Assembly (NCBI RefSeq): GCF_021044625.1
Contig: NZ_CP087999.1
Coordinates: 3,741,001 to 3,805,000, forward strand
Direction: 5' to 3'
From: Geomonas sp. RF6
Lineage (GTDB): Bacteria; Desulfobacterota; Desulfuromonadia; Geobacterales; Geobacteraceae
DNA: 64,000 bases
In this document: piece after piece, positions 9,944-30,661 of the stretch
Layout: every line of letters starts with the position of its first letter
How positions within the stretch are numbered: position 1 is the stretch's first letter
Notes under the pieces: model-generated
The model's database searches: none
What the model saw: only the letters and a program-made list of their open reading frames with translations
What the model was told of the DNA's origin: nothing
Made by a program: the position numbers and the translations under genes

Positions 9944-11029
9944 CTACCCGCGGCGCCGGTATTCCTGGCGCAGCAGGAGGTCGATGAGGACGAGCGCCGC
10001 CATCCCCTCCACAATCGGGACCGCCCGCGGCACGACGCAGGGGTCGTGCCGACCGGCGCCCTCCAGGACAACCTCCCGCCCGGTGAAGTCGGCGGTCGCC
10101 TGCTTGCGGGCGATGGTGGCGGGGGGCTTGAAGGCGACCCGGAAGTACAGCGGCTCCCCGTTGGAGATCCCCCCCTGCACGCCGCCGCTGAAGTTCGTCA
10201 CCGTGCCGAGCCTGCTCCCCTTCAGCACGAAGGGGTCGTTGTGCACGCTCCCGAGCATGCGGCTCCCGGCAAAGCCGGAGCCGATCTCGAACCCTTTCAC
10301 CGCCGGGAGGGAGAGCATGGCGTGGCCGAGGAGCGCCTGCAGCTTGTCGAAGATCGGCTCACCCAGTCCCGCGGGGACGTTTCGGCACACGCAGCTCACC
10401 ACGCCGCCGACCGAATCGCTCCCCTCGCGGGTGCGCTCGATGAGGCGGATCATGGCGCGCGCCGCCTCCGCATCGGGGCAGCGCACCTCTGTGGCGTCGA
10501 CCTGCGCCCGGTCTATGTGGTCGAGATCGACCGCCCCCGACTCGATCTCGCCGACAGCGCTCACCCAGGCGACTATCTGCACGCCGCAGCGGGCGGCCAG
10601 AAGCTTCTCCGCGATCGCTCCCGCTGCGACCCGCCCTATCGTTTCCCGCGCGCTGGAGCGCCCACCTCCGCTGGAGGCGCGCACGCCGTACTTCTGCTGG
10701 TAGGTGTAGTCCGCGTGGGAGGGGCGGGGAACCTCCTGCATCCCGGCATAGTCGCCGGGGCGCTGGTCGTGGTTGCGCACCGTGAGCGCGATGGGGGTGC
10801 CGAGGGTGACCCCCCGTTCCACCCCCGAAAGGATGGTGACCAGATCCTTCTCGCTGCGCGGGGAGGCGAGCTCGCTCTTCCCGGGACGCCGCCGGTCCAG
10901 CTGCGGCTGGATGTCGTTCTCGCCGAGCGCGATCCCGGCGGGGCAGCCGTCGACGACCGCTCCCACCGCCGCGCAGTGGCTCTCTCCGAAGGTGGTGACC
11001 TTGAACAACTTCCCGAATGTCGATGACAT
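9944..11029 (-). CDS. aroC: Chorismate synthase
   Basis: A 361-residue enzyme of normal length for AroC, which makes chorismate from 5-enolpyruvylshikimate-3-phosphate with reduced FMN. Family signatures are visible: [13 protein letters not shown] near the N-terminus, the central [22 protein letters not shown] and the late [12 protein letters not shown] and [11 protein letters not shown] segments. It is monocistronic here, flanked by a repeat element downstream and by the chemosensory operon transcribed away from it upstream. Confidence 0.97.
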
Positions 11030-11351: not shown

Positions 11352-12788
11352 ATGGCGACTACCCTTTCAGACGCTACCCTGACGCGGGTCAGCGACTTTC
11401 TCGGCGCGCAGATGGGACTGCACTTTCCGAAGCAGCGCTGGGGAGACCTTGAGCGGGGGCTTGTGGAGGCGGCTCGCGAGATGGGGTTTCCTGACGTGGC
11501 GGCCTGTGCCGGTCGCCTGGTGAACCAGACGCTCACCCAGAGGCAGATCGAGATTCTCGCCAGCCACCTCACCGTTCCGGAGACGTACTTCTTCAGGGAG
11601 CCCGCGTCGCTGCAGGTGGTGGAGTCGGTCATCCTTCCAGAGCTGGTGCATGAGCGCCGGGGGAGGGACCAGCGACTGAGACTGTGGAGCGCGGGGTGCT
11701 CCAGCGGTGAGGAGGCGTACACCCTGGCCATCATGCTGTACCGGATGCTCCCGGATTTGAAGGAGTGGCACATCACCATCCTCGGCACGGACATAAGCCC
11801 CCGTGCCCTGCACAAGGCGCGCGGCGGCATCTACAGCAACTGGAGTTTTCGCGGAACTCCGAACTGGCTGAAGGATCTCTTCTTCCGCCCGGCCGGTGCG
11901 GGGCGATACGAGCTCTCCCAGCAGATCAGGCAAATGGTCTCCTTCTCCTACCTGAACCTCGCCAGGGACGACTACCCTTCCCTCGTCACCAATACGAACG
12001 CCATGGACCTCATCCTGTGCCGAAACGTCCTCATGTACTTCACGCAGCAGCTGGCGCAGGAGGTCGCGGAGAGGCTGCACAAGAGCCTCATGGACGGCGG
12101 GTGGCTCCTGGTGAGCCCGGCCGAAGTCTCCCCGCAGACCTTCTCCTCCTTCCAGGGAGTGAACTTTCCCGATGCCACCGTTTACCGGAAATCCGCCGAC
12201 TCCGTTCCGGCTCGCTCCGTGGAGGCGCCTGCCTCGATCGCCACACCCTTCCCGGCCGGGAACGGGGGGGCAGAGGGGGGGAGCCTTCCCCTTCATGCTG
12301 CGGAGGATTCGTTGGCGGCGGCTGGTGATGCCTTCCGCGCCGGGAGATACGGGGAGGCCGCTGCCGCACTCCAGGAGCTCCTCCAGGACGGCAGAAGGGA
12401 TGCCCACGGCTACTCTCTCATCGTGCGCAGCTTCGCAAACCAGGGGGCGCTGGACCAGGCGCTCCACTGGTGCGAGCGGGCAATCACGGTGCACAAGCTG
12501 ACTGCGGAGTTCCACTACCTGCGGGCGGTCATCCTGCAGGAAAAGGACGAGATGCAGGAAGCGCGGCTCTCCTTGCAGCGCGCCCTCTACCTCGATCCGA
12601 ATCTCGTGCTGGCGCACTTTGCCCTCGGGAAGATCGCCATGGGAGAGGGGAAGGGGAAGGCGGCGAAGCACTTCCACAACGCCCTCGCCCTCCTGAAGGG
12701 GATGGCGCCGGACGACACCCTCCCGGAGTCCGAGGGGATGACGGCGGCACGGCTCAAGGAAGTCATCCACTCGCTCCTGGGGCGCTAG
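11352..12788 (+). CDS. CheR-type methyltransferase with C-terminal TPRs
   Basis: A 478-residue protein. Residues 1-275 form a CheR domain: N-terminal helices, LTVPETYFFREP, the SAM-binding LWSAGCSSGEEAYTLA, ILGTDIS and DLILCRNVLMYF. After a variable linker, residues about 305-470 form TPR-like helical repeats (AGDAFRAGRYGEAAAAL, REFHYLRAVILQEKDEMQEA-type units). It methylates glutamates of chemoreceptors. The CheR-TPR arrangement is the WspC/FrzF-like form of alternative chemosensory systems rather than E. coli CheR. It heads a co-directional run to 25242, 64 bases before the CheW gene. Confidence 0.92.
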   Translation: MATTLSDATLTRVSDFLGAQMGLHFPKQRWGDLERGLVEAAREMGFPDVAACAGRLVNQTLTQRQIEILASHLTVPETYFFREPASLQVVESVILPELVHERRGRDQRLRLWSAGCSSGEEAYTLAIMLYRMLPDLKEWHITILGTDISPRALHKARGGIYSNWSFRGTPNWLKDLFFRPAGAGRYELSQQIRQMVSFSYLNLARDDYPSLVTNTNAMDLILCRNVLMYFTQQLAQEVAERLHKSLMDGGWLLVSPAEVSPQTFSSFQGVNFPDATVYRKSADSVPARSVEAPASIATPFPAGNGGAEGGSLPLHAAEDSLAAAGDAFRAGRYGEAAAALQELLQDGRRDAHGYSLIVRSFANQGALDQALHWCERAITVHKLTAEFHYLRAVILQEKDEMQEARLSLQRALYLDPNLVLAHFALGKIAMGEGKGKAAKHFHNALALLKGMAPDDTLPESEGMTAARLKEVIHSLLGR

Positions 12789-12852
12789 TGCCGGGGCCCT
12801 CCCCGGGCGCACAGCCGCCGGAAGCGGTAGCCAAGGTGCGACGATAGCGCGT

Positions 12853-13908
12853 ATGATGAGAATGAAAACCGGAATCGCCGAGGATTTATCGGGGAACCTG
12901 CCGATGGAAAAGCTTTTCATCCTGCATCTCGATGACCGCCGCTATGCACTGAAGCTCGCCGCTGTGGAGCGGGTGGTGCGCATGGTGGAGATCACCCCGC
13001 TCCCCTCCTCGCGGACGGTTCTCGGCCTCATGAACCTGCAGGGGCGCATCATCCCCGTTCTCGACCTGCGTCCCCGCTTCGGGATGCCGGCTCGCCCGAC
13101 CGGTGCCGGCGACGTCCTGGTGGTCGCCGCCAGCGCCGGAAAGACCGTCGCACTCGTCGCCGACAGCGCCGGCGAGATCGTGGAGCGCTCCGCCAGCGAG
13201 CCTCTCCCCGCGCCCGAATTCTTCCCCGGCATGGAGTATGTGACGGGCGTTCTGAAGAGCGGGGACCGGCTCGTCCTTTTGTGCGACCTCGACCACATCC
13301 TCTCCGCGGAGGAGAGGGGGCTCATCGCGGAGGTGGAGTCGCGTCCTGAAGAGGAGGGGGCGCTCCCGCCGCCGGGGGGGGATCCGGCAGAGGATGGCGC
13401 GCTGCGAGGGGTACTGAAGGAGCGGGCGCGCAGGCTCGCGCTGGAGCCCCCGGAGCAGATAGTCCCGGAGGATCAGCTCGAGGTCGTGCACTTCACCCTC
13501 GCCTCCGAGCGCTACGGCATCGAATCGGTGCACGTGCGGGAGGTCTACCCGTACAAGGAACTGGTGCCGCTCCCCGGCTCCCCGGACTTCCTCCTCGGAA
13601 TCATGAACGTGCGCGGCAAGATCCACTCCGTCCTCGACATGCGGAGGTTTTTCCATCTCCCCGGGAAGGGATCGCACCTCTTGAGCAAGGTGATCATCCT
13701 GCAGAGCCCGCGCATGGTCTTTGGCATCGTCGCGGACGCCATCCTCGGTGTCGCGTCGGTGCCGCTGGCGGAGCTGCAGCCGGGGCTTCTGACCTTCACC
13801 GGGGCGCGCGCCGCCTACGTGAAGGGGGTGACGAGGGACGGGGTCACGCTTTTGGACGGCGAGAAGATTCTTTCGGACCGCAAGCTTGTGGTGCATATGG
13901 AAGTGTAG
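12853..13908 (+). CDS. Tandem-domain CheW coupling protein
   Basis: A 351-residue protein with two CheW (SH3-like) domains. The first is near residues 20-155 (FILHLDDRRYALKLAAVERVVR, GLMNLQGRIIPVLDLRPRF) and the second near 210-350 (VVHFTLASERYGIESVHVREVY, GIMNVRGKIHSVLDMRRFF). They are joined by an acidic Pro/Glu linker. CheW couples receptors to CheA; two domains in one chain could bridge receptor and kinase arrays. ATG 12853 is followed closely by ATG 12859 and 12904, so the N-terminus is uncertain. In Wsp systems two separate CheW proteins occur; here they appear fused. Confidence 0.9.
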   Translation: MMRMKTGIAEDLSGNLPMEKLFILHLDDRRYALKLAAVERVVRMVEITPLPSSRTVLGLMNLQGRIIPVLDLRPRFGMPARPTGAGDVLVVAASAGKTVALVADSAGEIVERSASEPLPAPEFFPGMEYVTGVLKSGDRLVLLCDLDHILSAEERGLIAEVESRPEEEGALPPPGGDPAEDGALRGVLKERARRLALEPPEQIVPEDQLEVVHFTLASERYGIESVHVREVYPYKELVPLPGSPDFLLGIMNVRGKIHSVLDMRRFFHLPGKGSHLLSKVIILQSPRMVFGIVADAILGVASVPLAELQPGLLTFTGARAAYVKGVTRDGVTLLDGEKILSDRKLVVHMEV

Positions 13909-13932
13909 CGAGGGGAGAGGAAAGGTCAGACG

Positions 13933-16680
13933 ATGCGAGAGAGAGAGACGGTGAGGGATAAGATGAAGCTGCCTGGCACACTGCAGAGGAAGGGGAGGGT
14001 CTTTCTCATCCTCTTCGCCACCATGACCGTCGCCGGGATCGTGACAATAGGCGCCTTTCTGAGCCTCACGAACATGGAGCGCTCCATGAACTCCCTGAAC
14101 CGCAGGGAGATCGCCATCTCCACCGATCTGAAGGAGCTGCGGGGAAGCAGGGCGGCGGAGCGCCAGGACGTACTTTCCATGTTGCTGACCCAGGACCGCT
14201 ACCAGCAGAACCTGCAGCTGCAGGACATCGTGAACAGGACACGGCGCGTCGACGCCGCGATCGAGAGGCTTTCCTCAAGCCTTAAGGAGTTCCCCGACCT
14301 GAACGCAAAGTTCCAGCGCTTCCTTGCCGTACGCAACCAGTACGTCACGGAGAGGGACCAGAAGGAGATCCCGCTCATCATGGACGGCGACCCGCAGGGG
14401 CGCGCCATGGCGCTCGGGGCGCAGGCGAAACGTTCCGACGAGCTGAGAACGGCGCTCGATGACATGATCTCCCAGATCGACCACCGGCTGCAGCAGGAGC
14501 TCCAGACGGTGGGGGCCTCCGCCGCCCGGATTCTACGCACCCTCCTGGCGCTTGGAACGCTCTGCTTTCTCCTGACCGGCGCGCTGGCGTTCCTGCTGCG
14601 CCGCTTCCTCAAGCAGGAGCAGCAGGCGGAAAGGGAGATGCGCGCCCGCAACGACCTTCTCACCGTGCAGCAGCAAAGCTCCCCCGACGACATTATGGCG
14701 GTCGACGCCATAGGGACGATCCTCTTCTACAACCGGCGCTATGACGAGCTGTGGGGGCTTTCCGGCGAGGAGGTGGAGGGGCGCCCCTTCATGCAGGTCA
14801 TCCAGGCATTCCTGCACAAGCTCGCCGAGCCGGAGGCGTTCCTGCAGAAGGTGCGCTACCTCATGGAGCACCGCGAGGAGCGCACCTCCGACGAGATCGT
14901 ACTGAAGGACGGTACCGTTTTCGACCGCTACACCGAGCCGTTGACCGGCAGAGACGGCCACTACTTCGGCAGGATCTGGTACCTGCGCGACATCACCGGC
15001 AGGAAGGAGGCGGAAAGGGCGCTCCTTGAGAGCGAATCGAACTTCCGCGGGCTCCTGGAATCGGCGGCGGACGGGATGCTCATCGTGAACGAGGCGCACG
15101 AGATCCTCATGGTGAACGAGCAGCTGGAGACGATGTTCGGCTACCACCGCTCCGAGCTGATCGGAAAATACGTCGGCGTCCTCATCCCGTCGCGCTTCAG
15201 CCACCATGCGGATTACGCACGCGGCTACATAGAGGCGCCCCGCAAGAGGCTCATGGGGAAGGGGCTGGAGCTTTTCGGCCTCAGAAAGGACGGAACCGAG
15301 TTCTCGGTGGAGATCAGCCTGAGCCCGATGCAGACCTCCAAGGGACTGATCGTCTCTGCCGCCATCAGGGACATCACGGACCGCAAACTGGCGGAGAAGA
15401 AGCTCTCCGCCTCCGCCGCCTACGCCCGCTCCCTCTTCGAGGCGAGCCTCGATCCGATGGTGACGATCAGCCTGGAAGGGAAGATGCTCGACGTGAACGA
15501 GGCGATGGTCCGCTTCACCGGGAACACCCGCGAGGGGCTTCTCGGCGCCGATTTCGCCGTCATCTTCACGGAGCCTGAAAAGGCGCGCGAGGTGTACCGG
15601 CAGACCTTTGCCACCGGCTACATACGCGATTACCCGCTGACGCTGCGCGACGCCTCCGGAAGGGTCACCGACGTCCTCTTCAATGCCACCGTGTACCGAA
15701 ACGAGGCGGGGGAGATCCAGGGGGCCTTCGCGGCCGCCCGCGACATCACCCAGAGGAAGCGGATGGAGGACGAGGTGAAGGAGCTGAACCGGGTCCTCGA
15801 GCAGCGGGTGGCGGAGCGTACCGAGTACCTCTCCAGCCAGACCCAGGAGATCCTGGAGGCGGCGAATGTTCTCGCGGCGGCCTCGAGCCAGATCAAGGAG
15901 ACCACGAACCAGGTCGTCACCGCCGCCATAGAGACAGCCGGCGCGGTGAGCGAGACGACGAGCACCGTGGAGGAGGTGAAGCAGACCGCACTGGTGGCGA
16001 GCCAGAAGGCGCGCAACGTCTCCGATACCGCTCAAAAGACGGTCCAGGTGGCCCAGCGCGGGAGGAAGGCGGTGGAGGAATCGATCTCCGGGATGGGGCG
16101 CATCCAGGACCAGGTGGAGTCGATCGCGGACAGCATCATCCGCCTTGCGGAGCAGAGCCAGACGATCGGCGAGATCATAGCGACGGTGAACGATCTCGCC
16201 GAGCAGAGCAACCTCCTGGCGGTGAACGCGGCGATCGAGGCGGCGAAGGCGGGAGAGCAGGGGAAAGGTTTCGCCGTCGTGGCCCAGGAGGTAAAAAGCC
16301 TCGCCGAGCAGTCGAAGGAGGCGACCGCGCAGGTGCGCACCATCCTGAACGACATCCAGAAGGCGACGAACGTGGCGGTCATGGTGACCGAGCAGGGGAA
16401 CAAGGCGGTGCAGGCCGGGGTCCAGCAGTCGAAGGAGGCCGGCGACGCGATCCGGCAGATGGAGGAGAGTATCGAGGTCTCGGCGCAGGCTGCCGCACAG
16501 ATCGCAGCTTCCGGGCAGCAGCAGCTAAGCGGGATGGACCAGGTCGCACAAAGCATGGAAAACATAAAACAGGCAAGCGAGCAGAACGTGACGGGGATGA
16601 AGCAGGTGGAGGCGACGTTGCAGAACCTGCATGAACTGGGGCAGAAGCTGAAGCAGCTGGTGGAGCGGTACAAGGTGTAG
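13933..16680 (+). CDS. Membrane chemoreceptor with three PAS domains
   Basis: A 915-residue MCP. TM1 is near 21-45, a helical periplasmic domain spans 46-198, and TM2 is near 199-222. Three cytoplasmic PAS domains follow (about 245-365, 365-490, 490-620), then a long MCP coiled coil with the hairpin tip [21 protein letters not shown] and [20 protein letters not shown]. No clear HAMP follows TM2; PAS domains take that place. The C-terminus ends LVERYKV without an NWETF-type tether for CheR/CheB. The PAS3-MCP part closely resembles the soluble receptor at 56296, suggesting a recent paralogue. It lies 24 bases after cheW, as the input of this operon. Confidence 0.93.
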
Positions 16681-16747
16681 AGCCCCCTGTCGGTGAGGCC
16701 GGAAGGGGACGTCGTGTGCATGGCGCACAGTCGCCGGAGAGAAGGTC

Positions 16748-19150
16748 GTGACTGATCGCGAGGCGGAATTCCAGAAGAGGCTCCTGGTTACCTTCAAGGT
16801 GGAGGCGGAGGACCATGTGCACCAGCTCGCCTCGGGGCTGGTGGAGTTGGAGGGGTGCTCGGAGCCGCAGAAGTGCGCGTCCCTCGTGGAAACCGTCTTC
16901 AGGGAGGCGCACAGCCTGAAGGGGGCGGCCCGGGCGGTGAATGCCGGGCGCATAGAGATGCTCTGCCAGGCGCTGGAGAGCCTCCTTGCTGCCTTGAAAC
17001 GTCAGGAGGTGGAACTTTTGCCGGAGCTTTTCGACCTCATGCAGCACTCGGTCGATTTCCTGAAGGATCTCCTCCTCGCCATGGAAGGGGGGATTGCACC
17101 GGGGAAGGAGGAGCAGGACGCGCTGACAGCACTGCTGCACGAGGCTGCGAGGGGGGCGCTCGCGCCCCGTCTCGAAGGAGTGACCCCCGCCGCACCGCCA
17201 CGGGCCGAGGCGCCCTCTGCCGCACCGGCGCCCGAGACTCCCTCCGTGGCTCCGGCGACAGGTGAAGCTCAGCCGGCTGGCGAGCCTCCGCTCCCCGCTT
17301 CGGCGCAGCAGAGTGGGGAGCCGCCCCGGCCGGAGGCGGTGCACGCAGAGACGATTCCTTCGGCGGCCGCGACGGCGCCGGTTCTGGAAACGGTGAAGGT
17401 GGCGACTTCCCGTCTCACCACGGTTCTTCTCCAGGCGGAGGAACTCCTGACTGCGAGGCTGTCGGCAAGCCAGCGGGCCGCTGAGTTGCGGGAGGTCAAT
17501 GCCTCCTTCTCGACCTGGAGGAAGGAGTGGGGGATGGTGACGCCCCTTGTAGACGCGATCTGCCGCACCGAGGAAAACGGAGTCAAGGAGCGCCGGACCC
17601 TCGAGTCCCAGGTGCAGCGCCTCTGCGATTTTCTGTACTGGAACGCCTCCTTCATGGCAGAGCTTCAGGAGCGCACAAAGCAGGTGCTCAGACAGACGGA
17701 CCGGGATGCCCGCGCCGTCGGCGGGATGGTGAGCAACCTCCTGGACGACATGAAGAAGGTCCTCATGCTCCCCTTCTCCTCCCTTCTGGAGATATTTCCG
17801 AAGATGGTGCGGGATCTCGCCCGCGACCGCGGCAAGGAGGTCTCCCTGACCGTGCAGGGGGGGGAGATCGAGATAGACCGGCGCATACTGGAGGAGATGA
17901 AGGATCCCCTGGTGCACCTCGTGCGAAACAGCATCGACCACGGCATCGAGACTCCGCAGGAGCGGCAGGCCGCGGGGAAACCGCCGCGGGCCACGATCGC
18001 CATCGCCATCACCCCGAAGGACGGGAGCAAGGTGGAGCTTACCGTGTGCGACGACGGCCGCGGGATCGATCTCTCCGGGGTGCGCGGGGCGCTGCGCCGC
18101 ACGGGGCTCGTCCCGGTGCACAGGATCGAGGAGCTCAACGTGGCGGAGCTCCTTTCCTATCTCTTCGTCTCCGGGATATCGACCAGCAGCACGGTGGACG
18201 AGATCTCCGGCAGGGGGCTCGGACTGGCGATTGTGAGGGAGAAGGTGGAGAGGTTGAGCGGCACCCTTGCGGTGGAGACGACGGAAGGGGCGCAGACCCT
18301 CTTTCGCATGACACTCCCCCTTACCGTCTCCTCTTTCCGCGTTGTCCTCGTGAGGGTGGCTGACCACTTCTTCGCCTTTCCGGCGGCCCACGTGGAGCAG
18401 GTGGCGAGGGTGAAGAGCGCGGAGATCGGCAGCGCCGAAGGGAAGGAGATGATCCGCTTCAAGGGGCGCATCGTTCCGCTGGTACGTCTGGCGGGGCTCC
18501 TCGGGATCGCACCGGATCTCCCGGGGGGGGAGCGGGTGCAGGTCGTTCTGGCGACGATGGCTGAGAAGACGGTCGCCTACCAGGTGGACGAGGTGCTAAA
18601 CGAGCAGGAGGTGCTGGCAAAGAACCTGGGGCTGCAGATCTCCCGCCTCCCGAACGTCACCGGCGCCACCATCCTCGGCTCCGGCCGCGTCGTCCCCATC
18701 CTGAACGTCTCCGACCTCATGTCCTCCACCATGAAGGGGGAAACGGAGAAGAGGGGAGTGCTCTCCAGCACGGCCGCACCGGAAGAGGTGAAGACGGGGC
18801 TCATTGCGGAGGACTCCATCACCTCGAGGACCTTGCTGAAGAACATACTGGAGAGCGCAGGGTACAGGGTGAGCACCGCGGTGGACGGGGTCGATGCCTT
18901 CACGCAGCTAAAGAGCGGCGGCTTCGACTTCCTTATCTCGGACGTGGACATGCCGCGCATGAACGGCATCGATCTCACCGCAAAGGTGCGGGGGGACCAC
19001 GATCTTGCGGAGCTCCCGGTCATACTGGTGACCTCTCTCGACTCGCAGGCGGACCGGGAAAGGGGGATGGACGTCGGCGCCAGCGCCTACATCGTGAAGG
19101 GGCGCTTCGACCAGAGCGACCTTCTGGAGGCGATCCGCAGGCTGGTGTGA
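16748..19150 (+). CDS. Hybrid CheA histidine kinase with CheW and receiver domains
   Basis: An 800-residue protein from a GTG start. An HPt domain has EAHSLKGAAR with the phospho-His near 55. A Pro/Ala-rich linker (about 135-215) and a dimerisation region follow. The ATPase has VHLVRNSIDHGIE (near 390) and GRGLGLAIVREK, the CheW-like P5 domain begins near 530, and a C-terminal REC domain has ISDVDMPRMNG with the acceptor Asp near 735. No separate P2 (CheY-binding) domain is apparent. CheA-REC hybrids occur in WspE and FrzE systems, where the REC acts as phosphate sink or relay. It is 67 bases after the receptor gene. Confidence 0.93.
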   Translation: MTDREAEFQKRLLVTFKVEAEDHVHQLASGLVELEGCSEPQKCASLVETVFREAHSLKGAARAVNAGRIEMLCQALESLLAALKRQEVELLPELFDLMQHSVDFLKDLLLAMEGGIAPGKEEQDALTALLHEAARGALAPRLEGVTPAAPPRAEAPSAAPAPETPSVAPATGEAQPAGEPPLPASAQQSGEPPRPEAVHAETIPSAAATAPVLETVKVATSRLTTVLLQAEELLTARLSASQRAAELREVNASFSTWRKEWGMVTPLVDAICRTEENGVKERRTLESQVQRLCDFLYWNASFMAELQERTKQVLRQTDRDARAVGGMVSNLLDDMKKVLMLPFSSLLEIFPKMVRDLARDRGKEVSLTVQGGEIEIDRRILEEMKDPLVHLVRNSIDHGIETPQERQAAGKPPRATIAIAITPKDGSKVELTVCDDGRGIDLSGVRGALRRTGLVPVHRIEELNVAELLSYLFVSGISTSSTVDEISGRGLGLAIVREKVERLSGTLAVETTEGAQTLFRMTLPLTVSSFRVVLVRVADHFFAFPAAHVEQVARVKSAEIGSAEGKEMIRFKGRIVPLVRLAGLLGIAPDLPGGERVQVVLATMAEKTVAYQVDEVLNEQEVLAKNLGLQISRLPNVTGATILGSGRVVPILNVSDLMSSTMKGETEKRGVLSSTAAPEEVKTGLIAEDSITSRTLLKNILESAGYRVSTAVDGVDAFTQLKSGGFDFLISDVDMPRMNGIDLTAKVRGDHDLAELPVILVTSLDSQADRERGMDVGASAYIVKGRFDQSDLLEAIRRLV

Positions 19151-19251
19151 GCTGCTGACGGAGTGAAGGGGGGCAAAAAGGATACGATGGCGGGTGGGAG
19201 AACCACCTCTTGCCGCGCGGGCGGCGCGGGAATTGGATGTGGAGGCGCGGT

Positions 19252-20307
19252 ATGGTGAAGGTGCTGGTAGTAGACGATTCCCCTGTGGCGCAGGCCCTTC
19301 TGGTGCACGTGCTCGGATCCGATCCGGAGATCGAGGTCATCGGCACCGCCCGAAACGGTACGGAGGCGATCGCGGTTCTGGAGAAAAAACGCCCCGATGT
19401 GGTGACCATGGACCTGCACATGCACGGCATGGACGGTTTCGTCGCGACCCGGCGCATAATGACCGAGTGTCCCGTCCCGGTGGTGATCGTCTCCGGATCG
19501 ATCGACCCGAAGCTCGACACCACCATTTTCCAGGCCATAGAGGCGGGGGCGGTCGCTATACTCCTGCGCCCCCCGGGGGTGGAGCATCCGGAGCACAGGC
19601 GGGCGGCGGCCGAGCTGGTGCAGACCGTAAAGCTTATGAGCGAGGTGAAGGTCGTGCGCCGTTTCCAGCCGCGCACGAGCATCGCGCGACCGCACTCCGC
19701 AGCGCTGGAGGAGGCGCTCACCGCACCCGACATCAAGGTCATCGCCATCGGCGCCTCCACCGGAGGGCCGATCGTGGTGAAAAGGATACTGAGCGGGCTC
19801 CCGCGCACCTTCCCGATACCGATCCTCGTGGTCCAGCACATGGCGGAGGGATTCGTGGAAGGGTTTGCCGAATGGCTGGCGCAGGCGTGCGCCATACGGG
19901 TAAAGGTCGGCTCCCATGGAGAGTTCCTCGCGCCGGGAGTCGCCTATGTCGGCCCGAGCGGATTCGAACTCGGCATCGACCGGCACGGGAAGATCGAGCT
20001 GGCCCGCGGCAAGGCCGGAGCGGTGCACTGCCCCACCGTCGGGCACCTCTTCGACAGCGTCGCCCAGAGTTTCGGAAGGCATGCGGTGGGGGTGCTCCTC
20101 ACCGGTATGGGATCGGACGGCGCACAGGGATTGAAGCGGCTGAAGGGGAAGGGGGCGATCACCATCGCCCAGGACAAGGAGAGTTCCGTCATCTTCGGGA
20201 TGCCGGGGGAGGCGGTAAAGCTCGGTGCGGCGCAGCATGTGCTCCCACCCGATGCCATCCTGCGCATGCTGACGGTCCTCGGCGGAAAGACGACGGCTCC
20301 CTTTTAG
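19252..20307 (+). CDS. CheB-type receptor methylesterase
   Basis: A 351-residue response regulator with an N-terminal receiver (VLVVDDSPVAQALL; acceptor Asp near 53 in VTMDLHMHGMDG) and a C-terminal methylesterase. The catalytic triad is visible: Ser in GASTGGP (about 169), His in VQHMAEGF (about 195) and Asp in GMGSDGAQG (about 288). It removes methyl groups added by the CheR at 11352. ATG 19252 is preferred because GGAGG lies 7 bases before it; the frame is open to 19210. One difference from CheB is the unusual IEAGAVAILLRPPG in the receiver, where canonical CheB has a KP motif; Arg replaces Lys here. Confidence 0.93.
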   Translation: MVKVLVVDDSPVAQALLVHVLGSDPEIEVIGTARNGTEAIAVLEKKRPDVVTMDLHMHGMDGFVATRRIMTECPVPVVIVSGSIDPKLDTTIFQAIEAGAVAILLRPPGVEHPEHRRAAAELVQTVKLMSEVKVVRRFQPRTSIARPHSAALEEALTAPDIKVIAIGASTGGPIVVKRILSGLPRTFPIPILVVQHMAEGFVEGFAEWLAQACAIRVKVGSHGEFLAPGVAYVGPSGFELGIDRHGKIELARGKAGAVHCPTVGHLFDSVAQSFGRHAVGVLLTGMGSDGAQGLKRLKGKGAITIAQDKESSVIFGMPGEAVKLGAAQHVLPPDAILRMLTVLGGKTTAPF

Positions 20308-20464
20308 GGAAAAGGAGTGGTGCAGCAGGAAAGTGACGCGACGTGATGCGGGCTCCCCCCCGGGAGATGCCCCAAACGACCCCCCGCTATCCCCCTCCCG
20401 GTTCTGAGGGGTAAAATGAGGTAGGGGGAGGAGTACTGAGAAGTAGCCTTTGAAGAGGTCCCTT

Positions 20465-22666
20465 ATGGATGGGAAGCTCACCGACATTGTGGTGGTGGAG
20501 GACAGCCCGACCCAGGCGGAGCAGGTGAAGTTCACCCTGGAAAGCCACGATTTTGCGGTACGGGTGGCGGGAAACGGCGTCCGCGCCCTCGAGCTCATCG
20601 AGGAGAAGCGCCCCGACGTGGTGATAAGCGACGTCATCATGCCGCAGATGGACGGCTACGAGCTGTGCCGCCGCATCAAGGGGGACCCTGCCCTGCGCCG
20701 CATTCCGGTCATTCTCCTTACCTCCCTCTCCGACCCGCGCGACATCGTCCGGGCGCTTGAGTGCGGCGCGGACAACTTCATCGTGAAGCCGTACGACGAG
20801 CATTACCTCCTGTCGCGCATCCGGTACACCATGGAGAACATCCCCATTCACGAAGGGGCGGGGACCGAGCCGGGGGTGGAGATCGTGCTGGCGGGGGAGA
20901 AGCATTTCATAGCCTCCGACCGCGTAAGTGTCTTGAACCTCCTCTTCTCCTCCTACGAGATCGCCATGCGCCGAAACAGCGAGCTCACCAAGATCCAGGA
21001 CGAGCTGAGATCGGTGAACGAGAGGCTCGAGCAGAGGGTCGCGGAGCGGACCGCAGCGCTCTCGGAGGAGCTGAAGAAGCGGAAGAGGATGGAGGATGCC
21101 CTAAAGGAGAGCGAGGAGCAGTACCGCATCATCATGGAAACGGCGAACGACGCCATCATCTGCATAGCTCCCCCGGGGGCGATCTATCTGTGGAACAAGA
21201 AGGCGGAGGAGATCTTCGGGTATTCGGCGCAGGAGGTGCTCGGGAAGGATCTGTACGATATCATTACCTCTCCGGAGCAGCGCAAGAAGGGGCACCACGG
21301 GCTGCGCGGCTTCTTTGCCACCGGCGTCGGCCCCTTCATAGGAAAGACGATGGAGGTGACGGCCTTCAACAAGGAGGGGAGGGAGTTCCCCATCGAGCTG
21401 TCTCTCGCGGCGATGCACATCGGCGGGGAGTGGCACTCGGTGGGGATCGTGCGGGACATAAGCGAGAGGAAGCGGCAGGAGCAGGAATTGCGGCAGGTGA
21501 AGAACTTCCTCTCCGATATCGTCGACTCCATGCCGTCCCTTCTCGTGGGGATCTGCCGTGAGGAGAAGGTCACCCAGTGGAACCTGGAGGCGCAGAGGGT
21601 GACCGGTCTTTCCGCCGCGGAGGCGATCGGCAGGCCGGTGGCGGAGGTCCTCCCCGACTTCTATCCGTGGATCCAGACGCTGCGTTCGCAGGTGCAGCCG
21701 AGGCGCTCCGCCACCATGGAGAAGCTCCTGATGAACAGAAACGGGGAGCGCAGTTTCTACGACCTCATGCTCTACCCCCTCTCCACCGATCCGAGTGCCG
21801 GCGCGGTGGTGCGCATAGAGGACGTCACCGAGCGGGCGCGCATCCAGGAGCTCATGGTGCAGACCGAGAAGATGATGTCGGTGGGTGGGCTCGCAGCCGG
21901 GATGGCGCACGAGATCAACAATCCGCTGGGGATCATCGTGCAGGCGGTGCAGAACGTGGAGCGCCGCCTCTCCAGCGCCCTCCCCGCCAACCGCGACATC
22001 GCGGGGGAGCTCGGGATCGACCTGGAGCAGGTGCGCGGCTACCTGGAACGGCGCCAGATCGTCCAGTTCCTGGAGAGTATCCAGGAGGCGGCCGCCCGCG
22101 CCGCGAGGATCGTCAGCAACATGCTGCAGTTCAGCCGGCAGAGTTCCACTACGAAGCAGCCGGAGCCGCTGGAGCAGATCATGGAAAAGGCGCTGGAGCT
22201 TGCCGCGAACGACTACGACCTGAAGAAGAAGTACGATTTCCGCAGCGTGGAGGTCGTGCGCGAGTACCAGCCCGACGTCCCCCCCGTCCCGGTCGTTTCG
22301 GTGGAGATCGAGCAGGTACTCCTGAACCTCCTGCGCAACGCGGCGCAGGCGATGATGGAGAACCCCCCGGAGAAGAAGCCGCGCATCACGCTCCGGCTCC
22401 GGACCGACGGGCGTTACGGCGTCATGGAGGTGGAGGACAACGGCCCCGGGATTCCGGAGGGGCTGCGGCGCCGCGTCTTCGAACCGTTTTTCACCACGAA
22501 GGAACCGGGGGTGGGGACGGGGCTCGGGCTCTCGGTGTCGTACATGATCATCACCAGCAGCCACCGCGGGCGCCTTACGGTGGAATCGACCCCCGGCGTC
22601 GGTACCTGCTTCGTGATCCGCCTCCCCATCGAGGAGAGGCAGCCGACGGAAAGAGACGAGGAGTGA
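20465..22666 (+). CDS. Response regulator-histidine kinase hybrid (REC-PAS-PAS-HK)
   Basis: A 733-residue cytoplasmic protein. REC occupies 1-125 (acceptor Asp near 55 in VISDVIMPQMDG), followed by a coiled coil at 165-220, PAS1 (about 220-340), PAS2 (345-465), HisKA with the His in GMAHEINNPLG near 481, and HATPase (610-720; VEDNGPGIP, GTGLGLSVSYM). It is likely a phosphorylation target of the upstream CheA and then acts as a kinase, so the pathway would branch to another regulator. The start at 20465 follows GAAGAGGT; an in-frame TTG at 20450 lies further upstream. The gap of 157 bases from cheB contains only C-rich sequence. Confidence 0.9.
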   Translation: MDGKLTDIVVVEDSPTQAEQVKFTLESHDFAVRVAGNGVRALELIEEKRPDVVISDVIMPQMDGYELCRRIKGDPALRRIPVILLTSLSDPRDIVRALECGADNFIVKPYDEHYLLSRIRYTMENIPIHEGAGTEPGVEIVLAGEKHFIASDRVSVLNLLFSSYEIAMRRNSELTKIQDELRSVNERLEQRVAERTAALSEELKKRKRMEDALKESEEQYRIIMETANDAIICIAPPGAIYLWNKKAEEIFGYSAQEVLGKDLYDIITSPEQRKKGHHGLRGFFATGVGPFIGKTMEVTAFNKEGREFPIELSLAAMHIGGEWHSVGIVRDISERKRQEQELRQVKNFLSDIVDSMPSLLVGICREEKVTQWNLEAQRVTGLSAAEAIGRPVAEVLPDFYPWIQTLRSQVQPRRSATMEKLLMNRNGERSFYDLMLYPLSTDPSAGAVVRIEDVTERARIQELMVQTEKMMSVGGLAAGMAHEINNPLGIIVQAVQNVERRLSSALPANRDIAGELGIDLEQVRGYLERRQIVQFLESIQEAAARAARIVSNMLQFSRQSSTTKQPEPLEQIMEKALELAANDYDLKKKYDFRSVEVVREYQPDVPPVPVVSVEIEQVLLNLLRNAAQAMMENPPEKKPRITLRLRTDGRYGVMEVEDNGPGIPEGLRRRVFEPFFTTKEPGVGTGLGLSVSYMIITSSHRGRLTVESTPGVGTCFVIRLPIEERQPTERDEE

Positions 22667-22719
22667 CGGTGAAAGAAAGGGTGCAGGCCGTTTCCTGAGG
22701 CCGGAGACAGGGAGATGTC

Positions 22720-25242
22720 ATGGAAGGAACAGTGAAAGTACTGATTGTCGATGACGAGGAACTCCTGCGCATGAACCTGCGCGCGGTCTTCGAGGATCTG
22801 GGCTATCTGGTGGTGGAGGGGGAGAACGGGCGGCACGCCCTGGAGGTCTTTGCCAGGGAGAAGCCGCACGTCGTCTTCACCGACCTGCGCATGCCGGAAA
22901 TGGACGGGCTCGCCTTTATTAGGGCCCTGAAGAAGGTGAGCCCCGAGACCCCGGTGGTCGTGGTATCCGGGATGGGGACGCTCGAGGATGCGATCCAGGC
23001 GGTGAGGCTCGGTGCCTGGGACTACATAACGAAGCCGCTGCGCCAGCCGGAGGAGATCGAGATCACCGCGAACCGCGTCCTGGAGCGGGCGCGCCTCATC
23101 GCCGAGAACAAGGCATACCGCGAGCACCTGGAGGAGCTGGTGCGCCAGCGCACGGAGGAGCTGCGCGACAGCGAGCGGCGCTACCGCACCCTCTTCGAGT
23201 CCGCCAACGACGCCATCATCCTCGCCCACGACGGGCGCATCGTCGGCTGCAACGACAAGGCGCTGGAGCTCTTCGACCGCCCCCGCGAGGAGATCGTTAC
23301 CGCCCCCTTTGCCGAGCTCTCCCCCGAAGCGCAGCCGGACGGGACGCCGTCGCAGTCGCGCGAGGCGTCCCTCGTGGAGAAGGCGCTCGGAGGGGAGGCG
23401 CAGTTTTTCGAGTGGCAGTTCGTGAAGAAAAGCGGTGCTCGCTTCGACACGGAGATCAGCCTGAACAGGATCGAGCTCTCCGGCACGATGCACCTGCAGG
23501 GGATCATCCGGGACATCACCCAGCGCAAGCTGAAGGACGCCTCCATACTGAAACTTTCCACTGTCGTTGAGCAGAGCGCGAACTCCATCATGATCCTCGA
23601 CACCGAGGGGCGCATCGAATACCTGAACCCGCGTTTTTACCAGACCACCGGCGTCTCTCCCGCCGAGGCGATGGGGAAGCACCCGACCTTCCTGAAGAGC
23701 GGCGCCAACACCCCCGACTTCTTCCACTCGCTGCGCCGGCAGCTGGAGAGGGGGGAGGGGTGGCGCGGCGAGATATGCAAGCCCGGGAGGAACGGGGAGC
23801 TCGTGTGGGAACTGACCACCGTGACTCCCATCAAGGAACGGAGCGGCAGGATCATGAACTACGTGGCGATCGGCGAGGATATAACGGAGCGCAAGCGCTT
23901 CGAGGAGCGGCTGTACCGGCAGGCGAACTTCGACGCACTCACCGGACTGCCGAACCGCTACCTCCTCTCGGAGCAGCTCGCCTACCGGATGTCCCAGGGG
24001 GAGAGCCTCTACGTCATGCTTCTGGACATCGACAACTTCGAGTACGTGAACGACACCCTCGGGCACTCCCAGGGGGACGAGGTCTTGCGCCAGATGGGGC
24101 AGCGCCTGAAGGGGCTCATCGGGGAGGAGGACATTCTCGCCCGCTTCATGGGGGACCAGTTCGTGCTCGTGCGAAAGGGGGGTGGGGGAGATGCGGCGGC
24201 GTACGATTTCGCCCGCGTGGTGGGGAAGGAACTGAACGCCATGTTCCACGTGAACCTCCACGAGATCTTCGTGACCGTCAGTATCGGGATCGCCACCTGC
24301 TGTGTCGACAGCTCCGTGCGGGTGGAGAGCCTCCTGAAGAACGCCGAGGCGGCGCTGCACAAGGCGCAGAAGGAAGGGGTGAACAGCGTCGTCTTCTTCA
24401 CCGACGAGATCGACCAGCAGGCAAACGTGCGCTTCTCGCTGGAGAGCCGTCTGTACAAGGCGCTGGAGCGGGAGGAGTTCGTCCTCTACTACCAGCCGCA
24501 GATCGACATAAAGACGAAGCGGCTGAGCGGGGTGGAGGCGCTCCTGCGCTGGTCCCCCCCCGGTGAGGAGATGATCTTTCCGGAGCGCTTTGTGCGGATT
24601 CTGGAGGAGACGGGGCTGATCGTCCCGGTCGGGGAATGGGTGCTGAGGGAGGCGTGCCGGCAGCACGCATCGTGGATGAGGTCGGGGATGCACCCTTTCT
24701 CCATGTCCGTGAACATCTCCGGCGGACAGTTCCGCAGCGGAAAGTTGCCGGAGATGGTGCAGCGGGCGCTGCACGATTTCGGCATGTCCCCAGCGCTCCT
24801 GAACCTGGAGCTTACCGAGAGCATCCTCATGCAGGACATGAACGAAACGGTGCGCATGCTGAGGGCGCTCGTCGATCTCGGCATCTCCCTCTCCATCGAT
24901 GACTTCGGGACCGGCTATTCGTCACTGAGCTACCTGCGCACGATGCCGATCCACGAGCTGAAGGTCGACCGCTCCTTCATCACCAGTCTCCCGGAGGACG
25001 CAAACTCCGTTGCCATAGTGAACACCATCCTCGGGATGGCGGAGACGCTGAACCTCTCCGTGGTGGCGGAAGGGGTGGAGTCGGAGGCGCAGTTCGACTT
25101 TTTCAGCACGAAGATCTGCGACAGGATCCAGGGGGCCTACTTCAGCAGGGCGATTGCGGCGGAGAAGCTCCCGGTCTTTGTGCGCAACGCGGAGGAGGGG
25201 CTTTTGGAGCAGGGGCAAAGGGTACGGATGCGCGGCAACTGA
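22720..25242 (+). CDS. REC-PAS-PAS-GGDEF-EAL protein with degenerate GGDEF
   Basis: An 840-residue protein: REC (1-125, VFTDLRMPEMDG), coiled coil, PAS (about 150-275 and 275-395), GGDEF (about 400-570) and EAL (about 580-825). The cyclase signature reads MGDQF near residue 476 in place of GGDEF, although the upstream LDIDNFEYVND metal site is kept. The EAL domain retains GVEALLRW, NISGGQF, ELTES, DDFGTGYSSL, KVDRSFI and VAEGVE. The expected activity is therefore hydrolysis of c-di-GMP, possibly with GTP binding by the GGDEF domain as a regulator. It is the last gene of the chemosensory operon, 53 bases after the hybrid kinase, and is followed by a terminator. Confidence 0.92.
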   Translation: MEGTVKVLIVDDEELLRMNLRAVFEDLGYLVVEGENGRHALEVFAREKPHVVFTDLRMPEMDGLAFIRALKKVSPETPVVVVSGMGTLEDAIQAVRLGAWDYITKPLRQPEEIEITANRVLERARLIAENKAYREHLEELVRQRTEELRDSERRYRTLFESANDAIILAHDGRIVGCNDKALELFDRPREEIVTAPFAELSPEAQPDGTPSQSREASLVEKALGGEAQFFEWQFVKKSGARFDTEISLNRIELSGTMHLQGIIRDITQRKLKDASILKLSTVVEQSANSIMILDTEGRIEYLNPRFYQTTGVSPAEAMGKHPTFLKSGANTPDFFHSLRRQLERGEGWRGEICKPGRNGELVWELTTVTPIKERSGRIMNYVAIGEDITERKRFEERLYRQANFDALTGLPNRYLLSEQLAYRMSQGESLYVMLLDIDNFEYVNDTLGHSQGDEVLRQMGQRLKGLIGEEDILARFMGDQFVLVRKGGGGDAAAYDFARVVGKELNAMFHVNLHEIFVTVSIGIATCCVDSSVRVESLLKNAEAALHKAQKEGVNSVVFFTDEIDQQANVRFSLESRLYKALEREEFVLYYQPQIDIKTKRLSGVEALLRWSPPGEEMIFPERFVRILEETGLIVPVGEWVLREACRQHASWMRSGMHPFSMSVNISGGQFRSGKLPEMVQRALHDFGMSPALLNLELTESILMQDMNETVRMLRALVDLGISLSIDDFGTGYSSLSYLRTMPIHELKVDRSFITSLPEDANSVAIVNTILGMAETLNLSVVAEGVESEAQFDFFSTKICDRIQGAYFSRAIAAEKLPVFVRNAEEGLLEQGQRVRMRGN

Positions 25243-25999: not shown

Positions 26000-26923
26000 A
26001 TGGGCCGACCTCTTAGAATAGAGTTCCCCGGAGCTCACTATCACGTCACAGCTCGCGGCAACGAACTGAGGGACATCTTTGAAACGCGCGGCGACATAGA
26101 GCGCTTTCTGTCGTATCTGGAGACGTCGATCACCAGGTACGGCGTCCTCCTCCACTCCTACTGTCTGATGACCAATCACTACCACCTGCTGGTGGAAACG
26201 ACGAAGGGAAACCTCTCCGAAGTCATGCAGCACCTGAACGGCGCCTACACGCACTACTTCAATTCGAAGCGCAACAGGGTGGGGCACCTTTTCCAGGGGC
26301 GCTACAAGGCGATCCTCATAAACCCTGACGAATACCTCGTGGAGCTGTCACGGTATGTGCACCTGAACCCGGTGCGTACCGGGATGCTTTCCCGCCCGGA
26401 AGAGTACCCGTGGTCGAGCTACCGTGACTTCATCGGCGAGCGGACCCCTCCCGAGTGGCTCACCACGCGGCGCATCCTGAACACTTTCGCCGAACGTGCC
26501 GAGTACCGAAAGTACGTGGAAGAGCTCATGGGGGAGGCGGAGTATCAGAGTCCGCTGAAAAATACCGCAGCCTCCACCTTTCTCGGGAGCCACGCCTTCG
26601 TCGAGGATGTGGTGGGGGCGCATCTCGGCGGGAAAGAGCATCTGCCGGCTCTCCGGGAACTGACGAAGGCACGCACCATCGAGCGGATCCTTTACGAAGT
26701 GGAGCATGCCTTTGACGACGCCAGGATCGCGAAGAAAGTAGGGATCTACCTCGCCCATCGTCACAGCGGCGCCACCCTCAGGGACCTCGGGGAATATTTC
26801 GACAAGAAGGAATCCGCGATCTCCCAGACGAGCCGCAGGCTTGCCGATGCCATAAACAGCGACCGGAAGCTCGCCAGGTCGGTGCGGGAGATCGAGGAGA
26901 GACTGAGCCTCTTTCCGACCTGA
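26000..26923 (+). CDS. REP-associated tyrosine transposase (Y1/IS200-like)
   Basis: A 307-residue HUH-superfamily nuclease. The N-terminal half has RIEFPGAHYHVTARGN, the HUH motif TNHYHLLVE, GHLFQGRYKAILI, and the RYVHLNPVRTGM segment carrying the likely catalytic Tyr. The C-terminal third adds a helix-turn-helix-like region (GATLRDLGEYFDKKESAISQTSRR), which places it in the longer RAYT subgroup. Such single-copy domesticated transposases are linked with spread of REP palindromes; several palindrome families are in this window. Upstream DNA is AT-rich (25,700-25,990). No IS ends or target duplication were seen. Confidence 0.9.
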   Translation: MGRPLRIEFPGAHYHVTARGNELRDIFETRGDIERFLSYLETSITRYGVLLHSYCLMTNHYHLLVETTKGNLSEVMQHLNGAYTHYFNSKRNRVGHLFQGRYKAILINPDEYLVELSRYVHLNPVRTGMLSRPEEYPWSSYRDFIGERTPPEWLTTRRILNTFAERAEYRKYVEELMGEAEYQSPLKNTAASTFLGSHAFVEDVVGAHLGGKEHLPALRELTKARTIERILYEVEHAFDDARIAKKVGIYLAHRHSGATLRDLGEYFDKKESAISQTSRRLADAINSDRKLARSVREIEERLSLFPT

Positions 26924-27069: not shown

Positions 27070-28347
27070 CTACAGCGAAGTCGATGCGCGTCCCTTACCA
27101 CCTCGCTTGCCGGGGAGCGCCTTCGGGAAATCTTTGTCGTCATGGCACTCCTTGCACACCGGCTTCTTCGCGAAGTCCTTCCCGGGGTGGCAGCTGTTGC
27201 AGTCGATCTCCTGGTGGTTTTTGCTGAGAGAAAGACCGGTGACGCTGTGGTTGAACGATCCGAGCTTCCAGGAGTGGCAGGAGGCGCAGCGGGAATCGAC
27301 TTTCTTAAGCGGCGCGCGCTTTCCATGACACCTGTCGCAGGAGAGGCGCGAGTGGAACTTGCCGAGGTCCCAGCGGGCGTTTACCGTGTGGTTGAATGGT
27401 GCCGCTACCTTCTCGGCGTGGCAGGTATTGCAGTTGCGCGTGTCGTGACAGGCGGAGCACTGCTTGTGGCGCGTCCCGAAATCCGCCTTCGCAGCTTTTT
27501 CCTTCTCCACCTTCTTCTTGTGTCCGTCCGCGGTCTTCGCCTCGTGGCACCTCATGCACTTCTCGTCCTTGTGGCACCCGGTGCAGGGGAGGTTGAATTT
27601 CGCCACGTGCTCGTTGTGGTAGAAGGTGACGTAGCGGCCGGTGCTGGAGGTGGTGTCGTACACGACCCGCGTCGGCTCCTGGGAGCGCGGATGGGTCTTT
27701 CCGGTAGCCTTCGAGATCTTCTCCTGCTGGGTCTTCGCACCCTTTGCCGACTTCAGCTGGTGGCACGAGTCGCAGTCGGTGGACTTGCTCCATTTGCGGT
27801 GGCACGGCATGCACTGCCTGTGGTAGGCGGCCTCGAGGTCAGGGGTGCCGATGTCCTCCCTCTTTCTCTCCTTGCCGTGGCACTTCTTGCAGTTCAGCAC
27901 CGGGCCGGTGGTGTTGTAGTGATGGCACCCGTTGCAGCCGTGGCTCATCTCGGACATCTGGGCATGCACCTTGTGGGTGAAGACGACGCTGCCGTACTTC
28001 TCCGACAGATCGTTCAGGACGAGCACCTCCGGCGCCTGCTCCGCGGAGTGATACACAGAGACGGTGTTCTTCGGGCAGCGCACGAGGCAGGGGTTTTCCT
28101 TCGTGGGGTACTCGCAGTCGTGGCACGTCTTGCAGTTGATCTTTCCGGTCGCGTGCCCCTGCGGCGGCTTTGCCTGCGGCTGCATCGGCGCCTCGTCCTG
28201 AGTCGCCTCCTCGCCCTGGTCCCCGTGGGACGCCGCCACGGTCGGCTTCTTCGTCTCCTTGCTGCTTTTGTTGCTGCTCTCCGATATGAGGGTAAAGGCG
28301 GCCAGAAGGGCCACCACGATGGCAAGAGTCAAGAGTACCTTTTTCAT
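27070..28347 (-). CDS. Periplasmic multiheme c-type cytochrome (13 CxxCH)
   Basis: A 425-residue protein with an N-terminal signal or anchor (KKVLLTLAIVVALLAAFTLI) and a hydrophilic Gly/Gln linker. Thirteen CxxCH heme motifs follow: CKTCH, CNGCH, CKKCH, CMPCH, CDSCH, CTGCH, CMRCH, CSACH, CNTCH, CDRCH, CASCH, CNSCH and CKECH. Many additional His residues could be distal ligands. It should accept electrons from the membrane subunit encoded just upstream and relay them in the periplasm. Its ATG overlaps the stop of the NrfD gene (TGATG), so translation is coupled. The C-terminus is very basic (LPGKRGGKGRASTSL). Confidence 0.93.
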   Translation of the reverse strand: MKKVLLTLAIVVALLAAFTLISESSNKSSKETKKPTVAASHGDQGEEATQDEAPMQPQAKPPQGHATGKINCKTCHDCEYPTKENPCLVRCPKNTVSVYHSAEQAPEVLVLNDLSEKYGSVVFTHKVHAQMSEMSHGCNGCHHYNTTGPVLNCKKCHGKERKREDIGTPDLEAAYHRQCMPCHRKWSKSTDCDSCHQLKSAKGAKTQQEKISKATGKTHPRSQEPTRVVYDTTSSTGRYVTFYHNEHVAKFNLPCTGCHKDEKCMRCHEAKTADGHKKKVEKEKAAKADFGTRHKQCSACHDTRNCNTCHAEKVAAPFNHTVNARWDLGKFHSRLSCDRCHGKRAPLKKVDSRCASCHSWKLGSFNHSVTGLSLSKNHQEIDCNSCHPGKDFAKKPVCKECHDDKDFPKALPGKRGGKGRASTSL

Positions 28348-30567: not shown

Positions 30568-30661
30568 AGTCTCCTCCAAGGAATGAGCATTACAAAACTT
30601 GCAGATGGAGCCTTTTTCCAGGTTGTGAGACAGAACCAGCCGCCTTGCTGTGAAAAGGAAA

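Follow-up and report, generated by a model that had tools for sequence, protein, structure and literature searches.

The window analysed here, 64,000 nucleotides of Geomonas sp. RF6 (bases 3741001 to 3805000 of a single-contig genome of 5.26 Mb; the relatives searched included no other genome of its genus), contains seven co-directional genes on the + strand, whose products are designated P0001 to P0007. The genes constitute a chemosensory (che) cluster, and sequence comparison identified its sixth product, P0006, as a chimera: its N-terminal third is of the type found in the output protein of related clusters, and it is joined to a histidine kinase of a stand-alone type. It is probable that the array encoded by the cluster, which is of the 'alternative cellular functions' (ACF) type, controls a captured two-component system by way of P0006 and then of the response regulator P0007, a REC-PAS-PAS-GGDEF-EAL protein. 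Arrays of this sort usually lead to production of a biofilm signal; P0007, by contrast, looks equipped solely for its destruction. All seven reading frames are open at the coordinates given in a preliminary description of this DNA, and both Pfam searches and reading of the open reading frames (ORFs) agree with the gene content and domain strings reported there (Table 1).

Related clusters share a conserved output receiver

With a cheW query, relatives were detected in 19 of the 58 close genomes and, at E values up to 1e-44, in 20 of 395 genomes sampled from the phylum (own genome included in each count). The comparison covered 41 che loci, of which L041 is a second cluster of the window genome and L043 and L046 come from one genome. 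Their usual gene order is cheW, cheR-TPR, cheW, mcp, cheA-REC, cheB and then an output gene, here called the slot. The slot was visible in 35 of the 41 loci, the stretch or contig ending first in L026, L044, L046, L047, L049 and L051. In all 35 the slot protein carries a receiver of the P0006 kind (at least 40% identity), which is attached to a kinase module in 27 and to a GGDEF domain in four (L022, L050, L053 and L054, with GGEEF or GGDEF motifs). The attached partner was left unassigned by BLAST in another four, among them L023, a kinase by profile.

This conservation supports P0006 as the protein whose receiver CheA would act on. It also changes the standing of the kinase, which had been described as a 'second' output: the protein with the slot receiver is the output in every locus with a visible slot. 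The expected conservation of the neighbourhood held for the core gene content, which is kept in relatives, and failed for the EAL gene, which was found in none of the 41 other che loci.

Slot proteins with kinase outputs and those with GGDEF outputs share a conserved segment after the receiver (P0006 residues 128–205), a beta-hairpin followed by a long helix with a motif like Y-I-DR-QIL-LLLSTYE-A--KN-EL. The slot alignment comprised 32 of the 35 prepared rows (L022, L040 and L059 left out); L053 was dropped because its match was too short. No Pfam match was obtained for the segment, and the best 50 PDB matches listed by Foldseek for the slot model covered the receiver part only.

In a tree of 150 receivers, many forks of which are weak for so short a domain, the P0006 receiver was placed within the slot clade (99/90, 35 rows). 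The receivers of CheA (98/98) and of CheB (99/99) formed clades of their own. The P0007 receiver lay outside all three and grouped with those of four REC-PAS-GGDEF-EAL homologues and one other receiver of the window genome (100/99). Receiver residues are intact in both P0006 and P0007. These placements tell against the earlier proposal that CheA acts directly on the EAL protein: the slot receiver sits on P0006, and the receiver of P0007 belongs to another REC family.

P0006 joins a slot receiver to a stand-alone-type kinase

Residues 12–205 of P0006 are 41–58% identical to 30 of the 32 slot proteins in the comparison set (L030, L034 and L042 left out), and 36% and 33% identical to those of L061 and L022, respectively. 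The AlphaFold2 model of these residues has a predicted local distance difference test score (pLDDT) of 86.5. Residues 336–731 match a stand-alone kinase (L108, genome G007) at 63% identity, and 11 other kinases compared showed 37–53% identity over parts of P0006. Slot kinases matched the kinase part of P0006 at about 31% over long matches, nine of them reaching 40–47% across some 100 residues of the ATP domain. In a windowed profile, coverage of P0006 passes from the slot set to the stand-alone set at residues 201–240; the joint cannot be placed exactly because, up to residue 440, P0006 shows little identity (about 0.2–0.3) to the stand-alone set. A quick kinase tree with long branches placed P0006 in a 13-row clade of stand-alone-type kinases without any slot kinase (Shimodaira–Hasegawa-like approximate likelihood ratio test, SH-aLRT, 99), the slot kinases being scattered at several separate places.

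The fusion was sought in 141 genomes of the order, with seven candidates scored in each. P0006 had matches at E values up to 1e-85 in 56 of them (own included). One match, in genome G466, spans P0006 residues 11–729, its receiver being 66% and its kinase only 35% identical. Among NCBIfam profiles AtoS ranked first for P0006, below its cut-off, and was given little weight.

Genome G007 holds both a che cluster (L024) and the stand-alone P0006-type kinase of L108. The window genome itself encodes a second P0006-type REC-PAS-PAS kinase (L110:7056-8996) beside two receptor genes and the CheA of another cluster; its receiver is of a different kind, 34% identical to that of P0006. The family has expanded locally in G519 (contig 32; L147 and L148), where a stretch of about 14 kb encodes five P0006-type kinases with receiver genes behind them.

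Kinases of the P0006 type are paired with P0007-type receivers

Outside the window, 35 P0006-type kinase sites (kinase at least 48% identical) were found in 31 loci. The survey of partner genes covered 32 fetched loci, part of all kinase matches; the sites include five tandem copies from a single genome (L147, L148) and one site of the window genome (L110). At 28 of the 35 sites a P0007-type receiver (at least 40% identity) was encoded within two same-strand genes of the kinase, and at 22 a REC-(PAS)-GGDEF-EAL gene lay at most two genes downstream of it. The control group, 83 other kinases in all fetched loci, was drawn from loci fetched for these same families and is therefore not independent; none of the 83 had a REC-GGDEF-EAL gene downstream and 21 had a P0007-type receiver near on either side, while none of the 44 controls in che loci was near such a gene or such a receiver. 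Four loci first found via P0007 were also recovered by the kinase search. The closer a kinase is to P0006, the closer its partner receiver tends to be to P0007 (Spearman 0.64, n = 26, p = 0.0004), a value inflated by species relatedness and uncorrected for it. In the window, the genes for P0006 and P0007 are 53 bases apart on the same strand. NCBIfam profiles for the P0007 receiver (RssB, then AtoC, NtrX, NtrC and FixJ) all scored below cut-off and were given little weight.

A slot receiver was found on none of the 35 kinases. At 20 of the sites a chemosensory-type gene is found at most four genes from the kinase (receptor 13, CheB-type 9, CheR-type 1, CheA-type 1), so that nearness to chemosensory genes may have preceded the fusion; within the same distance cheW was found at no site and cheA at one. 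Stand-alone genes for CheB methylesterase-like proteins of about 190–200 aa were seen within four genes of the kinase in L090, L112, L153, L154 and L157–L161, in some cases together with receptors, a possible receptor-controlled module without cheW nearby.

P0007 has the catalytic residues of a phosphodiesterase

The residue set of an EAL phosphodiesterase comprises EAL, N, E, DD, K, EGVE and Q, and P0007 keeps all seven catalytic positions checked, including in an alignment with MorA. Its EAL, DDFGTGYSS and VAEGVE motifs are intact and its GGDEF motif reads MGDQF, exactly as first described. The GGDEF domain thus departs from the GG(D/E)EF active site of a diguanylate cyclase; in addition, the FK..ND motif has Glu441 in place of its Lys, and the Arg of the RxxD inhibitory site is missing. 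With intact EAL residues and a degenerate GGDEF domain, P0007 looks like a phosphodiesterase only, and it is predicted to have phosphodiesterase but no cyclase activity. The earlier characterisation of a Wsp-related cluster whose cyclic di-GMP (c-di-GMP) protein resembles a phosphodiesterase and not a cyclase is upheld.

Within the window genome, the EAL proteins L065, L069, L070 and L071 depart from the catalytic set at one or more positions, and the other nine GGDEF-EAL proteins all read GGDEF (L071 and L092 were left out of the GGDEF-EAL alignment). The altered GGDEF motif was rejected as a peculiarity of this gene set: 20 of the 22 partner regulators of P0006-type kinases depart from GGDEF or have no readable motif. 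Their motifs are GGDEF (2), VGDEF (13), MGDEF (1), VGNQF (2) and GADQF (3), that of L163 being unmatched by the pattern; five of the 22 have the change of Glu to Gln seen in P0007, and the VGDEF and MGDEF forms were not counted as recurrent loss of cyclase. All seven EAL motifs are kept in 21 of the 22, L151 failing two patterns.

AlphaFold2 modelling and Foldseek matched P0007 to folds of the DosP, MorA and PA0575 type, with LapD structures also among the matches. The domain arrangement was not used because the predicted template modelling score (pTM) of the full-length model was low (0.49).

A proposed circuit and its alternatives

We infer the phosphotransfer steps of the circuit, its enzyme activity and the sign of that activity from the sequences. 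The 4HB-PAS receptor, the fused CheW and CheA would make up an array, with CheR-TPR and CheB providing its adaptation. CheA would phosphorylate the slot receiver at the N-terminus of P0006, and this receiver, via the hairpin and long helix, would turn the kinase up or down. P0006 would then phosphorylate (or dephosphorylate) its partner P0007, whose receiver and PAS domains would set EAL activity and so the breakdown of c-di-GMP. The GGDEF domain of P0007 would make no c-di-GMP and may bind GTP as a regulator.

The best precedent includes an inhibitory step. In Rhodospirillum centenum, CheA3 phosphorylates the CheS3 receiver, turning the CheS3 kinase off, and only CheS3~P phosphorylates CheY3 (PMC3868531). 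If the same were true here, CheA activity would lower the phosphorylation of P0007, and the consequence for c-di-GMP would then hinge on whether the EAL domain is activated by phosphate. The preliminary description expected receptor signalling to lower c-di-GMP; with several steps of either sign in between, an inhibitory one in the precedent and the response of the EAL domain to phosphate deciding the outcome, no direction is claimed.

The odds appear even that the slot receiver with its hairpin and long helix is an interchangeable 'plug' recognised by CheA, joined elsewhere to cyclases and to several unrelated kinase lineages and here to a phosphodiesterase-partnered kinase. If so, a single fusion would move an array from direct control of an effector to command of a whole two-component system.

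Several observations weigh against control through P0006 and P0007. The fusion is known from one genome only among the 141 searched, the window protein being the only match to cover both parts with this kinase type. For the closest kinases, 65–68% identical to P0006, no EAL partner was seen within two genes wherever the locus could be read (L108, L147, L148, L150 and one of two in L151). Those of L108, L148 and L150 are partnered by REC-(PAS)-kinases with receivers 51–60% identical to that of P0007 and that of L151 by a 123-residue receiver, while four copies in L147 have no partner nearby; the L146 kinase has a receiver 62% identical to that of P0007, in a locus that ends at the contig end. 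The P0007 receiver is 51–62% identical to some of the receivers partnered with the closest kinases, against 42–50% to those of the EAL partners, and because the former are nearer, P0007 may itself be a recombinant, with the receiver of one subtype and the GGDEF-EAL part of another. Moreover, 17 of the 83 control kinases lie at most two genes behind a REC-GGDEF-EAL gene, all in loci with a P0006-type kinase, so that such regulators may have a second kinase. Finally, CheA might also reach P0007.

Taken further, this last point gives a direct pathway, an 'inverted Wsp', in which CheA phosphorylates P0007, a stimulus lowers c-di-GMP and P0006 is a parallel branch. The adjacency of P0006 and P0007 on one strand, their intact receiver residues and the intact EAL and degenerate GGDEF domains of P0007 are all consistent with such a pathway. 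It is nevertheless unlikely, as the P0007 receiver is not of the slot type of 35 of 35 che loci and belongs with the receivers beside P0006-type kinases.

Tandem GGDEF-EAL proteins can be receptors, and LapD-type proteins lack the full set of EAL residues. P0007 could likewise be an adaptor that binds c-di-GMP or GTP, as do LapD and FimX, and passes its message by protein binding without being an enzyme. All the checked EAL residues are present in P0007, however, all seven EAL motifs are retained in 21 of the 22 partner regulators, and the phosphodiesterases DosP and DibA, and MorA, are among the best matches by family and by structure; we therefore regard this as quite improbable, even though the GGDEF domain is degenerate, LapD structures occur among the fold matches and the degenerate GGDEF domain of FimX senses GTP (PMC8846402). 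Very improbable is an accidental proximity of P0006 and P0007, with the array acting via P0006 on an unlinked regulator and P0007 obeying another kinase. The lack of an EAL gene in the 41 other che loci and the 17 P0007-like regulators with a second kinase behind them would suit it; the 53-base gap on one strand and the P0007-type receiver within two genes at 28 of 35 P0006-type kinase sites would not.

Comparison with known systems

The Pseudomonas Wsp system has two separate CheW genes and a CheB. As Wsp does, the present cluster combines a 4HB receptor, CheR-TPR, CheA-REC and CheB. Shared with Wsp as published are the 4HB_MCP_1 receptor, CheA, a REC-bearing c-di-GMP protein and the ACF class (PMC8846402), as well as CheR-TPR (PMC3447774). 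In Wsp, however, WspE directly drives WspR, an active REC-GGDEF cyclase (PMC8846402), whereas here the slot receiver is on a kinase, the c-di-GMP protein is phosphodiesterase-like and the CheW pair is fused in one gene. The occurrence of a CheR-TPR gene together with multidomain response regulators, which marks ACF clusters in PMC3447774, supports the assignment of the gene set to a Wsp-related cluster of that type. The novelty seen in the EAL output does not stand: the 2012 survey of CheR-TPR clusters records varied REC outputs, among them one regulator with EAL and two with REC, GGDEF and EAL (PMC3447774).

The Che3 system of R. centenum, likened here by description and not by sequence, also has a CheA-REC and a second hybrid kinase with N-terminal receiver(s) that is the target of CheA, followed by a regulator (PMC3868531); there the last regulator is the stand-alone receiver CheY3, whereas here it is REC-PAS-PAS-GGDEF-EAL. 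Geobacter clusters with a CheA/Y fusion, likened in 2008 to Frz, P. aeruginosa cluster 3 and R. centenum cluster 3, resemble the present one in a CheA with a C-terminal receiver and were assigned to non-chemotaxis processes; the terms EAL and c-di-GMP do not occur in the text of that paper, and no captured kinase-phosphodiesterase pair was seen in the parts consulted (PMC2577667).

Kinase-(REC)-REC-(PAS)-GGDEF-EAL sets of the same order share with P0006 and P0007 the kinase type and the downstream regulator (22 of 35 sites) but not the slot receiver on the kinase (0 of 35). P0007 has the PAS/GGDEF/EAL layout of E. coli DosP and of NCBIfam DibA, and DosP reads EGTQF where P0007 reads MGDQF, but the P0007 scores do not reach either NCBIfam cut-off. 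DosP has no receiver; it is a one-component haem sensor. A cascade from CheA through a hybrid kinase to an EAL protein, with a slot receiver fused to a kinase that has a phosphodiesterase partner, was not found in the open-access literature searched. The ACF chemosensory cluster is of a known kind; its output arrangement is new.

P0006 is a clean natural chimera whose parent-like parts are still separate in relatives, as in G007 (L024 and L108). It allows one to test how arrays gain outputs and whether a moved receiver keeps CheA control, and it warns that the effector domain alone may mislead on the direction of c-di-GMP change when a kinase lies between.

Array proteins and locus

The two CheW domains of P0002 are encoded in one ORF, an arrangement found in none of the 41 other che loci, and the difference from relatives noted earlier is thereby borne out. 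Where readable, the relatives have two separate cheW genes, usually flanking cheR-TPR. No other protein among the matches listed in the close-genome and phylum searches covered both CheW domains, and a scan of genome contigs with the fused query returned two loci only. In the receptor P0003, 146 residues separate the hairpin tip (Glu769) from the C-terminus, a length that, as a rough estimate, would be consistent with class 40H, to which WspA belongs (PMC2577667). The CheA P0004 is 34–47% identical to the CheA of related clusters by BLAST.

In the CheB receiver the conserved Lys is Arg in P0005 and in L021, L028, L037, L042, L043, L052, L055 and L057, and another residue in L029 and L056. CheB activation in clusters with this Arg may not need the usual phosphorylation switch.

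Table 1. Features of the gene set, in window positions
Feature	Position	Strand	Basis
P0001, CheR-TPR methyltransferase, 478 aa	11352..12788	+	Pfam CheR (8e-48) and TPR; same gene in related clusters
P0002, fused CheW-CheW coupling protein, 351 aa	12853..13908	+	Pfam CheW, two stretches
P0003, chemoreceptor with 4HB sensor, three PAS and MCP signalling domain	13933..16680	+	Pfam 4HB_MCP_1, PAS x3, MCPsignal
P0004, CheA-REC	16748..19150	+	Pfam Hpt, HATPase, CheW, REC; its REC in the CheA REC clade
P0005, CheB methylesterase	19255..20307	+	Pfam REC and CheB; conserved Lys of REC is Arg
P0006, REC-PAS-PAS-HisKA-HATPase chimeric kinase, 738 aa, putative CheA target	20450..22666	+	Pfam REC, PAS, HisKA, HATPase
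P0006 residues 12-205, output-slot receiver, beta-hairpin and long helix	20483..21064	+	Identity, REC tree, model
P0006 residues 336-731, stand-alone-type PAS-HisKA-HATPase	21455..22642	+	63% to L108 kinase; histidine kinase tree
P0007, REC-PAS-PAS-GGDEF-EAL response regulator, 840 aa, predicted phosphodiesterase	22720..25242	+	Pfam REC, PAS, GGDEF, EAL
P0007 receiver, type accompanying P0006-type kinases	22729..23085	+	REC tree
P0007 residues 477-481, MGDQF, degenerate GGDEF motif	24148..24162	+	Motif reading
P0007 residues 577-810, EAL domain, catalytic residues intact	24448..25149	+	Pfam, alignment

Strand and spacing suggest that the seven genes form one operon. Promoter-like and sigma-54-like sites, searched for at the gene set, were no more frequent than expected by chance. 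P0005 was read from a GTG at 19255, its ORF opening at a TTG at 19210; the ORF of P0006 opens at a TTG at 20450, and its true start is possibly a few codons later. The set is bounded by minus-strand genes, one at 9944–11029, which we take to encode chorismate synthase, and a small one at 25314. Just downstream, 26000–26923 presumably encodes a REP-associated transposase, and the minus strand of 27070–30579 carries genes that we take to be multihaem cytochrome-, membrane subunit- and ferredoxin-like.

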